From contig CAIUCH010000040.1 of NCBI GenBank assembly GCA_903897605.1, positions 1 through 64,000 on the forward strand: a stretch of DNA of 64,000 bases, given 5' to 3'. Position 1 is the stretch's first letter; the number at the start of each line of letters is the position of its first letter. The position numbers and the translations under genes were made by a program. Origin of the DNA: an uncultured Alphaproteobacteria bacterium. GTDB lineage: Bacteria; Pseudomonadota; Alphaproteobacteria; Micropepsales; Micropepsaceae. Positions 1,624-15,331 of the stretch are shown here, in pieces. The notes beneath the pieces were generated by a model. It was not told the DNA's origin. It saw nothing but the letters and a program-made list of their open reading frames with translations, and searched no databases.

Positions 1624-1649
1624 AAAAAGCCCCGGAAAATTTCCGAGGC
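1624..1649 (-). terminator. Rho-independent terminator after tRNA-Asn
   Basis: On the minus strand GCCTCGGAAA pairs with TTTTCCGGGGC (one G-U pair) and is followed by TTTTTC. It lies 27 bases beyond the 3' end of tRNA-Asn and so fits as its terminator. Confidence 0.75.
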
Positions 1650-1675: not shown

Positions 1676-1750
1676 TGGCTCCCCGGGCCGGGATCGAACC
1701 AGCGACCAACCGGTTAACAGCCGGTTGCTCTACCACTGAGCTACCGAGGA
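1676..1750 (-). tRNA. tRNA-Asn (GTT)
   Basis: The minus-strand sequence folds into a full cloverleaf: acceptor TCCTCGG pairs with CCGGGGA, the D-arm has GCTCAGTGGTAGAGC, the anticodon stem/loop CCGGCTGTTAACCGG carries GTT, the T-arm has GGTTCGATCCC, and CCA is encoded. It is followed by a rho-independent terminator at 1624-1649. Confidence 0.97.
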
Positions 1751-1850
1751 ACAGGACGCGGTGTCTAGCGCGTCCCCACCCCCAAGACCAGCGGAAATTT
1801 TCCAGCAGTTCGCGGCATTTCGCGCACCGCCAGGTGCAAATACTGGGCAC

Positions 1851-1880
1851 AAAAAAATGAGGCCGGGTGTGAGCCCGGCC
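1851..1880 (-). terminator. Rho-independent terminator
   Basis: On the minus strand GGCCGGG and CCCGGCC close a six-base loop and are followed by TCATTTTTTT. It ends the candidate small RNA and/or transcripts from the gene at 2030-2899. Confidence 0.8.
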
Positions 1881-1940
1881 CCAAGGCGTTGGGTAATGGT
1901 GGGGTGTCTTCAAGGAAGACATGGGCATCATGCCAACCCA
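1851..1940 (-). ncRNA. Candidate small RNA downstream of a CtrA box
   Basis: On the minus strand this segment has a possible hairpin at 1924-1934 (GGCATGATGCC), a perfect 7-bp hairpin at 1905-1921 (TGTCTTC-CTT-GAAGACA), a C-rich unpaired stretch, then a strong terminator hairpin ending in seven T (1851-1880). No convincing protein is encoded. A perfect CtrA-type box lies just upstream at 1944-1959. A promoter, folded body and terminator in about 100 bases fit a trans-acting small RNA of roughly 70-90 nt. The 5' end is estimated, not seen. The hairpin could instead terminate the upstream gene at 2030-2899. Confidence 0.45.
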
Positions 1941-1943
1941 GGG

Positions 1944-1959
1944 TTAACAAACACTTAAC
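1944..1959. promoter_or_regulatory. CtrA-type binding site
   Basis: TTAACAAACACTTAAC matches TTAA-N7-TTAAC, the full recognition site of the alphaproteobacterial cell-cycle regulator CtrA. It reads as a full site on either strand. On the minus strand it would place a start near 1920, just ahead of the candidate small RNA; no gene is correctly placed on the plus strand. Confidence 0.55.
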
Positions 1960-2029
1960 CAGACTGATTCGCGGACAATTTTTCAAAAAGATGCGGTCGG
2001 GCGCAATTTTCGGCCGGGCGCTGCAGCGC

Positions 2030-2899
2030 CTATTTCGGCAGAGGCATGGAGACCGCCCGGTCAGCGGTGCGTTCTCCCATCCATAGGGTGTCACCCGCCG
2101 GTTCGATCGCCGTCGGTGTGCCAAGCCCGTCCTTCAGGACGGTGATCGCGGCAATGTCGCCAGTGACCGTCACCATGTCCACTTTGCCGGCGCCATTCTC
2201 AGTCAGAAACAGCTTGCCGTTGGCCGCGCGCATTCCATCCGGCCCCTTGATCGGCTTGTCCATCCAGATGTCCACTAGCTTGCCGGCCTTGCCACTGGCA
2301 TCCATCGGTACGCGATAGAGATTGTTGGAAATCACATTGTTGGCGTAGAGCGTCGTGCCGACGAAGGTGAGGCCATCGATACCGTTTAGAGCGCGATCCT
2401 CGATCAGCAATTCGCCTTCCGGCGCGCCCGGTTTCAGCCGCCAAATCCGGCTGGCGGAAGTATCGGAAACGTAGAGCGCCTTGTCCGGCCCGATCGCAAT
2501 ATCATTGCAGAGATTGGTTTCCCCAGGCAGCGCCCAGCGAAATTTCGCGGCGCCGGTTTTCAGGTCGAAGCCGCGCAGGGCGCTGTGGCGATTGGGATTG
2601 CCGGGTGTATTGGCGATCTGGCAAGCCCACAAGATATTGCTCGCGCCATCCGCCAGCACGCCCAGGAAGGTGGCGTTGGCGTCTTCGGCGCTGACATCGA
2701 TGAATATTTCCGCAGCGCCACTGGTCTTCCTGGCGCGGTAGATTTTCGGCGAACTGGCGCTGCCCAAAATCAATTCACCGTCCGGCGCGATGGTGATGCT
2801 TTCCGGCTGGGATTGGGCGGGGACAGTGACCGTGGCGGCCATCGCCATTGTGGTCAGCAACGCCGACAGACAGGCAGTGGCGGTCGCAATGCGGATCAT
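2030..2899 (-). CDS. Exported SMP-30/NHL-type beta-propeller protein
   Basis: This 289-residue protein starts at the ATG with GGGGAG upstream; longer readings run into tRNA-Cys and are rejected. Residues 1-21 (MIRIATATACLSALLTTMAMA) form a signal peptide. The rest shows repeated blades of the type PDGELILGS, PDKALYVSDTSASRIWRL, GLTFVGTTLYANN and NGKLFLTENGAGKV. This is the six-bladed propeller of the SMP-30/gluconolactonase/strictosidine-synthase clan, likely periplasmic. A lactonase is possible but the metal ligands cannot be assigned with certainty, so no substrate is proposed. It lies alone between tRNA-Cys and a terminator. Confidence 0.8.
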   Translation of the reverse strand: MIRIATATACLSALLTTMAMAATVTVPAQSQPESITIAPDGELILGSASSPKIYRARKTSGAAEIFIDVSAEDANATFLGVLADGASNILWACQIANTPGNPNRHSALRGFDLKTGAAKFRWALPGETNLCNDIAIGPDKALYVSDTSASRIWRLKPGAPEGELLIEDRALNGIDGLTFVGTTLYANNVISNNLYRVPMDASGKAGKLVDIWMDKPIKGPDGMRAANGKLFLTENGAGKVDMVTVTGDIAAITVLKDGLGTPTAIEPAGDTLWMGERTADRAVSMPLPK

Positions 2900-2957: not shown

Positions 2958-3031
2958 TGGAGGCCACGCCCGGAATCGAACCGGGATGCAAGGATTTGCA
3001 GTCCTCTGCGTAACCATTCCGCCACGTGGCC
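2958..3031 (-). tRNA. tRNA-Cys (GCA)
   Basis: The minus strand gives a complete cloverleaf: acceptor GGCCACG pairs with CGTGGCC with U as discriminator, the anticodon loop CTGCAAA carries GCA, the T-arm has GGTTCGATTCC, and CCA is encoded. The U discriminator base is characteristic of tRNA-Cys. Confidence 0.97.
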
Positions 3032-3981: not shown

Positions 3982-4605
3982 ATGTCCAGTCCTCAGCACG
4001 AACCTACGATGGAGGAAATCCTTGCCTCCATCCGCAAAATCATCTCCGAGGACACCCCGGAAGCGGCTCCGGCCGCCGAAGCGGCGGCTGCGCCCCCGGA
4101 AGCCGCCAAGCAGGAACTGCAGGCCGAACCCGAGATCGACGTCCTGGAACTAACCCAGGAAGTGTTTGAAGAGCCGGTTGCCGCAAGCGAGCCGCCGCCC
4201 AAGGTTGACCATAAGCCCGACGACATCGTGTTCGAGCCGGTCCAAGAGGCGCCCCAGCCTGCGCCAGTGATCGAGGGCATCTTCTCCGACCAGACCCGCC
4301 AGGCGATGGAAGATACTTTTGCATCCATCTCCACCGAGCCTGAGACGCCCGCACCGGCCCCGCGCCCAGCGGCTGCGCCACTTGCCGCTGTCGGCGGGGC
4401 GAGCGTGGAAAATGTATTCGAGCGCGCCGTGCGCGAAAGCTTCGAACCGGTGATGGCGAAATACCTGTCCGACAATTCCGGAGTGGTGATCGAGCGCATG
4501 AAACCACTGATCCGCGAATGGATGGACGAGCATTTCCCCGCGCTTCTGGAAGGGGCGGTACGGACGGAAATCGAGCGGGTGGTAAAGGCCGGCGGCAGGC
4601 GCTGA
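3982..4605 (+). CDS. popZ: Polar organising protein PopZ-like (DUF2497)
   Basis: A 207-residue protein with the two conserved ends of PopZ. The N-terminal helix is EPTMEEILASIRKIISED (residues 7-24), and the C-terminal three-helix module runs from NVFERAVRESFEPVMAKYL to the terminus (about 139-207). The middle, residues 25-135, is Pro/Ala/Glu-rich and acidic, as expected for the disordered linker. PopZ polymerises at cell poles and anchors the ParB-parS centromere and signalling proteins in Caulobacter-like bacteria. Presence next to valS is common in this class. Confidence 0.92.
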   Translation: MSSPQHEPTMEEILASIRKIISEDTPEAAPAAEAAAAPPEAAKQELQAEPEIDVLELTQEVFEEPVAASEPPPKVDHKPDDIVFEPVQEAPQPAPVIEGIFSDQTRQAMEDTFASISTEPETPAPAPRPAAAPLAAVGGASVENVFERAVRESFEPVMAKYLSDNSGVVIERMKPLIREWMDEHFPALLEGAVRTEIERVVKAGGRR

Positions 4606-13138: not shown

Positions 13139-15331
13139 ATGGGTCATCTGTCCGCGCGCCTGCTTGGAACGGCTGCGCTTCTGTCCGCATTGGCGATTTT
13201 GCCGGCACATGCCGCCGGCGGCGACGATGCAAGACTCAAGGCTATCGCCTCCAAGATCCAGGTCACGCGGGATAGCTATGGCATCGCCCATGTGAAGGGG
13301 CACGCCGACGCCGACGCTGTGTTCGGCATGGTCTATGCCCAGGCGGAAGATGACTTCAACCGCGTCGAAACCAACTACGCCACCAATCTGGGCATCACCG
13401 CTCAATATGACGGCGAGAAGGCGATCTGGAGCGATCTGCGCCAGCGCCTCTACACCGATCCCGATGTCCTGAAGGCCGACTACGCCAAGAGCCCGGACTA
13501 TCTGAAGAAGATCATGACGGGCTGGGCGGACGGGTTGAATTACTATCTGCAGACCCACCCGAATGTGAAACCCAAATATATCGCCCATTATGAGCCTTGG
13601 ATGGCGCTCAGCTTTACGGAAGGCAGCATCGGCGGCGACGTCGAAAAGGCCCGCCTGACCCAGGTCCAGGCTTTCTATGCCAAACGCACTGTGGCGATGA
13701 CCGACATCGAAAATGGCTTCCAGTATGTCGAGCCGGTGGGCTCGAACGGCATCGCGATCGGGCCCAAGAACACTCAGGATGGCCACGCCATGCTGTGGAT
13801 CAACCCGCACACCTCCTTCTATTTCCGCGCCGATGTGCAGATGACCAGCGACGAGGGGCTCAACGCCTATGGCGCCGCGACTTGGGGCCAGCCCTTCCTG
13901 TACCAGGGCTTCAACGAGCATCTGGGTTGGATGCACACCACCAGCTCGGCGGATTGCGTTGACGAATTTGCCGAAACCGTTACCCAGAAGGACGGCAAGT
14001 ATGTTTACAAATACGGCAATGAAGAGCGCCCGGTGACGGTGAAGAATATCACCATCAACTACAAAGCCGCTGACGGCAGCATGGCGAAGAAGACCTTTGT
14101 CACCTATGCCACCCATCACGGCCCGATCGTGCGGGAAGCCGATGGCAAATGGATCGCCATGGCGATCATGAACAAGCCGATTGAAGCCCTCGAACAGTCC
14201 TTCGGGCGGACCAAGGCCAAGGATCTCGCCGAGTACCAGAAAGTCGCCAGCGTGCAGGCCAATTCGTCCAACGACACGCTCTATGCCGACGACAAGGGCA
14301 ATATCGCGCTGCTGCTTCCCCAGTTCGTGCCGCTGCGCGACAACCGCTTCGACTATACCAAGCCGGTCGATGGTTCCGATCCCGCCACGGATTGGAAGGG
14401 GATGACGCCGGTGAACAATATCCCCCATGTGATAAACCCGGCGTCCGGTTGGGTCTTCAACAGCAATGACACGCCGGAGAATTCCGCCGGCCCGCATACC
14501 GTCGACATGACCAAATTTCCCAAATACATGGACGCTTCGGGTGAAAACCCGCGCGGCGTTCACATGGTACGGGTGCTGACGAACAACAAGGGCATGACGC
14601 CGCAGACCTTGATCAAGGCGGCCTTCGATCCTTATCAGCCCGCCTTCGCCCAAATGATTCCGGCGCTGGTGCGTGACTATGATGCGTTGCCATCTTCCAG
14701 CCCGCTGAAGACCAAGCTGGCTGAACCGGTGGCGCTGTTGAAAGCCTGGGACTTCAAATGGAGCGCGGATTCGGTCGCCAACTCGGTCGCCATTTTCTGG
14801 GGCGAGGTCTTGTATAATCGCGATATTCGTCCGATGCGCGCCGCCGGAATCCGGGATGATTACGTCGATTACCTGACCAACAAGGCTTCGGCCAACGAGC
14901 GGTTGCAATCCTTGTCCGATGCGATGGACAAGCTGACCGCCGATTTCGGCAGCTGGAAGACCCCCTGGGGCAATATCAACCGCTACCAGCGCATCAATGA
15001 CGACATCGAAGCCAAGTTCGACGACAACGCGCCCAGCGATCCGGTGCCGTTCACTTCGGCGCAGTGGGGTTCGATCGCGTCCTATGGCGCGGTGCACGAC
15101 CACACCAAGAAATGGTACGGTGTCGGCGGCAACAGCGTCATAGCTTCGGTGGAGTTCGGGCCCAAGGTCCGGGCCTGGGCGGCGACGGTGGGCGGCGAAA
15201 GCGGCGATCCCAAATCGCCGCATTTCAAGGACCAGGCGCAGGCCTATATCACCGGCAATCTGCTGCCGGTCTTCTTCTATCCGGAAGACCTCAAGGCGCA
15301 TACCGAGCGCAGCTATCATCCGGGCGAATAG
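13139..15331 (+). CDS. Periplasmic acylase, penicillin-acylase family (Ntn hydrolase)
   Basis: A 730-residue precursor with a signal peptide (cleavage near AHA-AGG, residue 26). The alpha-region shows ITRDSYGIAHVKG-like sequence (VTRDSYGIAHVKGHADADAVFGMVYAQAEDD). The nucleophile is Ser202 in EPVGSNGIAIGPKNT, where autoproteolysis after Gly201 would free the catalytic serine; TGKAMLWxNPH-like HAMLWINPHTSF follows. Family members hydrolyse amides such as beta-lactam side chains, acyl-homoserine lactones and cyclic lipopeptides. The substrate here is unknown; quorum-quenching activity is possible but not shown. GGGGAGGG supports the start. The amidohydrolase gene follows after a hairpin. Confidence 0.93.
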   Translation: MGHLSARLLGTAALLSALAILPAHAAGGDDARLKAIASKIQVTRDSYGIAHVKGHADADAVFGMVYAQAEDDFNRVETNYATNLGITAQYDGEKAIWSDLRQRLYTDPDVLKADYAKSPDYLKKIMTGWADGLNYYLQTHPNVKPKYIAHYEPWMALSFTEGSIGGDVEKARLTQVQAFYAKRTVAMTDIENGFQYVEPVGSNGIAIGPKNTQDGHAMLWINPHTSFYFRADVQMTSDEGLNAYGAATWGQPFLYQGFNEHLGWMHTTSSADCVDEFAETVTQKDGKYVYKYGNEERPVTVKNITINYKAADGSMAKKTFVTYATHHGPIVREADGKWIAMAIMNKPIEALEQSFGRTKAKDLAEYQKVASVQANSSNDTLYADDKGNIALLLPQFVPLRDNRFDYTKPVDGSDPATDWKGMTPVNNIPHVINPASGWVFNSNDTPENSAGPHTVDMTKFPKYMDASGENPRGVHMVRVLTNNKGMTPQTLIKAAFDPYQPAFAQMIPALVRDYDALPSSSPLKTKLAEPVALLKAWDFKWSADSVANSVAIFWGEVLYNRDIRPMRAAGIRDDYVDYLTNKASANERLQSLSDAMDKLTADFGSWKTPWGNINRYQRINDDIEAKFDDNAPSDPVPFTSAQWGSIASYGAVHDHTKKWYGVGGNSVIASVEFGPKVRAWAATVGGESGDPKSPHFKDQAQAYITGNLLPVFFYPEDLKAHTERSYHPGE

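Follow-up and report, generated by a model that had tools for sequence, protein, structure and literature searches.

The stretch upstream of the tRNA-Asn gene in this DNA raises the question of whether it encodes a small RNA and, if so, whether that RNA belongs to the CtrA circuit of the cell cycle, as had been proposed in the initial annotation. The window, that is, the whole 64-kb stretch of DNA that was analyzed, comes very probably from a genome of Rhizomicrobium, which the NCBI taxonomy places in the order Micropepsales. The features of the locus are collected in Table 1. The stretch is very probably a real regulatory RNA gene of 72 letters; its dependence on CtrA and its mode of action are argued below with less certainty.

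Table 1. Positions of the predicted RNA, its parts, its putative promoter and the neighboring tRNA genes in the window
Feature	Positions	Strand	Remarks
Predicted small RNA, about 72 nt	1851-1922	(-)	5' end predicted; R1 match of 91.6 bits; fold
5' hairpin (hairpin 1), UGUCUUC-CUU-GAAGACA, 7 bp	1905-1921	(-)	Sequence and pairing both conserved
Unpaired C-rich linker with CCCCACCAUUACC, presumed interaction site	1884-1904	(-)	Nearly invariant in 30 loci of the genus
Intrinsic terminator, 10-bp stem and T run	1851-1883	(-)	Stem 1858-1883, seven T 1851-1857
CtrA box TTAA-N7-TTAAC, TTAAGTGTTTGTTAAC	1943-1958	(-)	Near-palindrome; plus-strand reading TTAACAAACACTTAAC at 1944-1959 (+)
Spacer, 20 nt, presumed -10 region	1923-1942	(-)	Contains the nonconserved hairpin 1924-1934
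tRNA-Asn(GTT), conserved downstream neighbor	1676-1750	(-)	Rfam match 1679-1750
tRNA-Cys(GCA), frequent upstream neighbor	2958-3031	(-)	Rfam match 2961-3031

Distribution of the RNA among relatives

A BLAST search with window positions 1845-2000 as the query gave matches in 52 of 100 genomes. One of these belongs to another family, and the other 51 are among the 60 genomes of the genus, counting that of the window itself. Named genome records contained the exact 22-nt core in 50 stretches. A record titled Planctomycetota (L054, JABDGM010000116.1) has the exact core and is perhaps a mis-binned contig. An RNA model, R1, was built without the box from 12 sequences, six from Rhizomicrobium and six from the G335 order, a set of 100 genomes taken to be Caulobacterales. 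Within the genus, R1 matched 51 of 60 genomes, none of them below 60 bits, and 40 of the 42 genomes of good quality. In the G335 order, 84 of 100 genomes and 24 of 26 genera were matched (62 genomes at ≥43.4 bits and 70 at ≥40 bits), and in the class, 32 of 386 genomes (21 at ≥43.4 bits). The 16 genomes of the G335 order without an R1 match belonged to family f161 (13 genomes) and to one genus of family f160 (three genomes); all remaining matches in f161 were weak.

Matches below about 40 bits were regarded as unsafe, eight of the nine such loci inspected from the class search having neither the box nor the tRNA. Matches of at least 43 bits occurred under ten GTDB family labels, eight from the class search plus f159 and f160 from the G335 order; the box and tRNA neighbors were checked under eight of these labels, f159 and f160 being represented by the R1 match alone. 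For detailed comparison, 80 loci were searched with R1, three of which (L083, L095 and L106) gave no match, and removal of six secondary or partial rows, L109 among them, reduced the 82 rows obtained to 76 tabulated loci. Of these, 65 were treated as members of the family, namely the 64 at ≥43.4 bits, with the 43-bit line drawn after the table had been seen, and L134 (35.3 bits), which was admitted with its box and tRNA already known. In one genome of the genus, a second, weaker copy (44.3 bits) was observed about 2.2 kb from the first and on the opposite strand (G055:C69:11205-11277 and 13509-13579).

A conserved hairpin-linker-terminator structure

The 72-nt RNA was predicted to fold with -27.5 kcal/mol (z = -4.64), a stability reached by none of 200 shuffles, and five relatives folded alike, with z values from -4.75 to -7.24. 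In 30 aligned loci, GAAGACACCCCACCATTACCCAACGCCTTGGGGCCGGG was almost unchanged and the box was kept, while the surrounding sequence varied. The linker, which also contains CACCCCACCATTACCCAACGCC on the minus strand, retains its CCCACCAU-ACC core in the G335 order as well. Across the 65 aligned members (62 distinct sequences), 99.5% of the cells were paired and 8 of 14 pairs had changes on both sides, values favored by an alignment that had itself been fitted to the structure; none of 500 shuffles reached any of the five structure measures. Covariation was found mostly in the terminator, where seven of eight modelled pairs showed double changes. Hairpin 1 was 99.7% paired and varied hardly at all, a double change being confined to one pair of a single sequence; this constancy explains the little covariation seen there. 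The initial annotation had named, as a refuting outcome, hairpins that are not conserved while the flanking genes are; instead, the flanks were often kept together with the RNA, and so was the hairpin.

The perfect 7-bp hairpin, the C-rich single-stranded stretch and the strong rho-independent terminator of the initial annotation correspond to conserved parts of one unit (Table 1). A further "possible hairpin" named there, GGCATGATGCC at 1924-1934, does exist, placed in the spacer that separates the box from the conserved RNA, but its pairing was not kept in the relatives when these were compared by eye, and it was rejected as a part of the RNA. The statement that the stretch holds no plausible protein was borne out: the distance from the hairpin to the core was not tied to one codon phase, the three phases having 30, 28 and 7 of the 65 loci, with indels shifting the phase, and an ATG lay within the RNA in only 12 of 65 loci. 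A protein-coding reading was therefore rejected.

A CtrA box at a near-fixed distance

As initially annotated, a full CtrA box precedes the RNA on the minus strand. It is the only TTAA-N7-TTAAC site in the 64-kb window, where the pattern occurred only as two overlapping readings of one palindrome, compared with a mean of 0.02 in 100 shuffles. TTAA-N7-TTAA(C) near a start site is the mark of a CtrA promoter, and such a motif lies here near the predicted start; if transcription begins at the hairpin, as we infer, the box would occupy about -36 to -21. When the 30 Rhizomicrobium loci of the alignment were inspected by eye, most of them carried CAT within the spacer.

Among the 65 members, the box scored 9/9 in 40, 8/9 in 22 and 7/9 in two, the remaining locus (L125) being cut at a contig end with just 16 nt upstream. 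In 63 of the 64 members with upstream sequence, the box started 35, 36 or 37 nt before the start of the RNA model, and in L134 it started 32 nt before. The 30 Rhizomicrobium loci (L002-L031) had been collected with a BLAST query that contained the box, and the fair count is therefore that of the other 35 loci, which are independent for the box. All 34 of these with upstream sequence had a CtrA-type box (7 to 9 of 9) 32 to 37 nt before the RNA; 33 of them scored 8 or 9, including 11 with 9/9, and 33 boxes lay at -36/-37, with that of L134 at -32. Without L134, the count is 33 of 33. These loci are spread over eight family labels (f1, f4, f63, f91, f116, f123, f137 and f146). Elsewhere in the same loci, a score of 8/9 occurred at about 3 per million of 334,628 positions and a score of 9/9 never. 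In the aligned Rhizomicrobium loci, 29 of 30 boxes scored 9/9, while that of L022, which carries an eighth spacer base, scored 7. In the 11 nonmember loci, no box scored above 7/9 (L107, at -27), and a tRNA was absent from all of them. Since the loci are related, the recurrence of the box reflects conservation rather than 34 independent events. The proposed tie of the RNA to CtrA rests on this box and its near-fixed distance. CtrA itself is encoded in the same genome (G000:C54:136175-136858, 85% identity to a typed Caulobacter CtrA), as is GcrA.

Genomic locus

The tRNA-Asn gene was found near 62 of the 65 members, 24 to 704 nt downstream, with 61 genes on the same strand as the RNA and 5 on the opposite strand (66 genes in all). 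A tRNA-Cys gene lay near 41 of 65, and one or the other near 64 of 65. In the 50 named stretches (up to 8 kb), relatives of proteins encoded in the window were present near the RNA, that of its PCMT-type methyltransferase in at least 34, of its PopZ-family protein in at least 30, of ValS in at least 26 and of its SMP-30-like protein in at least 12; these are lower bounds because the stretches reach unequally far.

In the window, a PopZ-family protein (DUF2497) is encoded at 3982-4605 (+), adjoining ValS and about 2 kb from the RNA; its product matched NCBIfam PopZ_fam with 90 bits, below the cut-off of 125. An SMP-30/virginiamycin B lyase-like gene lies at 2030-2896 (-) between tRNA-Cys and the RNA and, being found near only 12 of the 50 named stretches (a lower bound), was perhaps inserted later. 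A second terminator-like stem was noted downstream of tRNA-Asn at 1629-1649 (-).

Relationship to the Caulobacter RNA CC0196

At its own cut-offs, Rfam reported only tRNAs over the window. In a relaxed search, the best match was to RF01519, the model of the Caulobacter sRNA CC0196; it spanned all 58 model positions and reached 29.3 bits, against a cut-off of 35. RF01519 matched 2 of 289 genomes of the class and, among 14 controls, Caulobacter vibrioides; in the G335 order it matched 22 of 100 genomes, 10 of them with scores above the cut-off. Of the 10 loci scoring above it, nine (L082 and L087-L094) have the core, the box and tRNA-Asn as in the window; L095 is over the cut-off yet has neither the core nor the tRNA, and it gave no match to R1. 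In the 24 RF01519 loci listed, the hairpin, core and CtrA-type box occurred together in 18, of which 17 had tRNA-Asn inside the 3-kb locus, while six (L095, L098 and L106-L109) did not have this set.

CC0196 shares with the window RNA the core UUGAAGRCACCC(C)ACCAUYAC and the layout of hairpin, linker and terminator, and its relatives in the G335 order share the CtrA-type box and the adjacent tRNA-Asn. The 3' part of the linker and the sequence of the terminator stem differ, as judged against the Rfam consensus. By its core, structure and locus, the window RNA is a homolog of CC0196, though it scores below the Rfam cut-off. The recovery of 22 of 100 genomes by RF01519, against 84 by R1 (62 at ≥43.4 bits) in the same sample, suggests that the Rfam model is too narrow.

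Three points make it likely that CC0196 is CCNA_R0004: RF01519 has a match in C. vibrioides, the name of the RNA includes the gene number, and a published Table 1 gives the position of CCNA_R0004 (PMC6237742). CCNA_R0004 is described there as 133 nt long, with its own promoter, between CCNA_00197 and CCNA_00196, and as rising 3.7-fold after mitomycin C, a response that was not specific (PMC6237742). Another data set gives a transcription start site (TSS) at 210993 on the minus strand under the label "Cell cycle regulated," with low 5' RACE TSS counts (2.2 to 12.8) and no cycle phase assigned; it reports no full CtrA site and one half site, and names cpaE and maf as predicted targets (PMC5988900). 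CCNA_R0004 is absent from the 18 Hfq-enriched rows of a third study's table, the text of which gives 21 noncoding RNAs (PMC11005374). The published Caulobacter data hence fit simple CtrA activation only partly, considering the low TSS counts without a phase and the length of 133 nt; this length does not match a 72-nt product, so that transcription may begin upstream of the box. In the literature searched, which lay mostly outside subscription papers, no functional study of a CC0196/CCNA_R0004-type RNA, of its box or of its spread was found. Landt et al. in 2008 reportedly described one new sRNA that appears to be controlled by CtrA; this may be the CC0196-type RNA, in which case the link would already be partly known in Caulobacter.

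Search for pairing partners

The initial annotation had suggested that the C-rich stretch could pair with ribosome binding sites, a suggestion for which we found no support. Against ctrA leaders (29 of 30 ctrA loci), the linker gave a mean duplex energy of -13.1 kcal/mol, compared with -13.9 for letter shuffles, and against gcrA leaders (17 of 30 gcrA loci) -14.3, compared with -15.9; neither was better than its shuffles, and both genes were rejected as targets. In 2.0 Mb of genome G027, 36 of 1563 self-predicted starts had a 7-mer match nearby, while control windows had 33 to 41 and shuffled cores a mean of 61.9 (SD, 17.9). The real matches were not above the controls, so the linker is no general anti-ribosome-site sequence in G027. 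The best single candidate was an 11-mer match in the glnA leader of G027, where two segments complementary to the RNA follow each other in the correct order (L306:10507-10550, that is, G027:C1:1730507-1730550). This match was not conserved: of the 33 genomes in which glnA was matched, G027 and G028 alone carried the 11-mer ahead of the gene, and glnA was rejected as well. Conserved complementarity was thus found in none of the ctrA and gcrA leaders, the G027 starts and glnA, in tests that were crude and extended to two chosen genes and to 2.0 Mb of a single genome.

Proposed mechanism and alternatives

The idea of a CtrA-controlled small RNA is supported, as far as sequence comparison reaches, by a conserved RNA unit in a conserved locus, the near-constant distance of the box (34 of 34), the ctrA gene in the genome and a probable Caulobacter relative that is annotated as an RNA with its own promoter. 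We favor, with a probability of roughly three in four, a free-standing small RNA gene of the CC0196 type that has a CtrA-dependent promoter and acts in trans by pairing. Phosphorylated CtrA (CtrA~P) would bind the box, tying RNA output to the CtrA-active part of the cell cycle, and transcription would end at the terminator, before tRNA-Asn. The RNA would then act in trans, pairing through its unpaired CCCCACCAUYACC linker, and the conserved 5' hairpin possibly helps to bind a partner.

The absence of a pairing excess at the 1563 translation starts of G027 and of any conserved target in the searches above would also fit an RNA that binds a protein or sponges another RNA through its invariant hairpin and C-rich linker, with no pairing to mRNA, and the conservation of hairpin 1 in sequence, beyond its pairing, points the same way. 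In its layout of hairpin, linker and terminator, however, the RNA matches sRNAs that act by base pairing, for example the alphaR8 family (PMC12559287), and the target tests were crude in the scope given above; we regard this account as rather doubtful while giving it real weight. It is unlikely, in our estimate, that CtrA binds the box of a real RNA to repress it, or that the box serves a neighboring gene, with the RNA high when CtrA is low. Such a site would overlap the -35 region, the box is near-palindromic, and half-site starts in Caulobacter include groups repressed as well as activated by CtrA (PMC4287350). Full-box start sites in Caulobacter nevertheless mirror CtrA (PMC4287350), and the distance of the box is fixed to the RNA, whereas tRNA-Asn lies 24 to 704 nt off and on the opposite strand in 5 of 66 cases. 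For the box of the window RNA we infer activation rather than repression.

In the window, the RNA shares the minus strand with the SMP-30-like gene and tRNA-Asn and lies between them, which might suggest a mere leader, spacer or terminator of a tRNA-Cys/tRNA-Asn unit, or the 3' end of the SMP-30-like gene. This we consider very improbable. The distance to tRNA-Asn varies widely, 5 of 66 tRNA-Asn genes are on the opposite strand and the terminator separates the RNA from the tRNA, all of which argues against a tRNA leader; the upstream box is kept in addition. A 3' untranslated region of the SMP-30-like gene was rejected because that gene was near only 12 of 50 relatives, in stretches of unequal reach. 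An accidental grouping of the box, the hairpin and the terminator, in favor of which nothing was found, has a negligible probability and is refuted by the conserved pairing, box and tRNA neighbors: R1 matches of at least 43 bits, with pairing, occur under ten family labels, and the box and tRNA under eight.

The favored reading, a CtrA-dependent RNA acting in trans, could be extended to an ancestral output of the CtrA circuit, an idea that we hold tentatively and rate at somewhat below even odds. The box and the RNA would have been locked together since before the split of Caulobacterales and Micropepsales, the linker would act on an equally old partner, and the RNA would be absent from few good genomes besides those of f161.

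Comparison with other small RNAs of Alphaproteobacteria

Few small RNAs have been tied to the CtrA circuit, and 6 noncoding RNAs were counted among 183 CtrA-bound, cycle-regulated start sites (PMC4287350); CcnA (CCNA_R0094) is the one studied in detail in the literature consulted. CcnA resembles the window RNA in its presumed activation by CtrA, from a box given at -23, and in its unpaired region bearing CCCC (PMC8959179). By its description it is set apart, being 182 nt long and situated inside the replication origin (PMC8959179), whereas the window RNA is predicted at about 72 nt and lies between tRNA-Cys and tRNA-Asn with popZ and valS nearby, and the ctrA and gcrA leaders are not its favored partners. 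Because of its place inside the origin, CcnA could not be deleted (PMC8959179); the window RNA is a separate gene, and its box can therefore be mutated cleanly.

The alphaR8/mmgR/SisA-D family (RF00519) has a similar build, with a weak 5' hairpin, a pyrimidine-rich linker and a terminator (PMC12559287). The window RNA, however, matched RF00519 with 23.8 bits, below the cut-off of 41, and the alphaR8 10-mer UUUCCUCCCU (PMC12559287) is absent from it; the alphaR8 siblings are described as having no common promoter motif (PMC12559287). EcpR1 of Sinorhizobium meliloti is likewise a small RNA connected with the cell cycle in Alphaproteobacteria but, compared by description, is stress induced. With its box at a near-constant distance under eight family labels, the promoter of the window RNA would be, as far as is known, among the best conserved of CtrA-linked RNAs.
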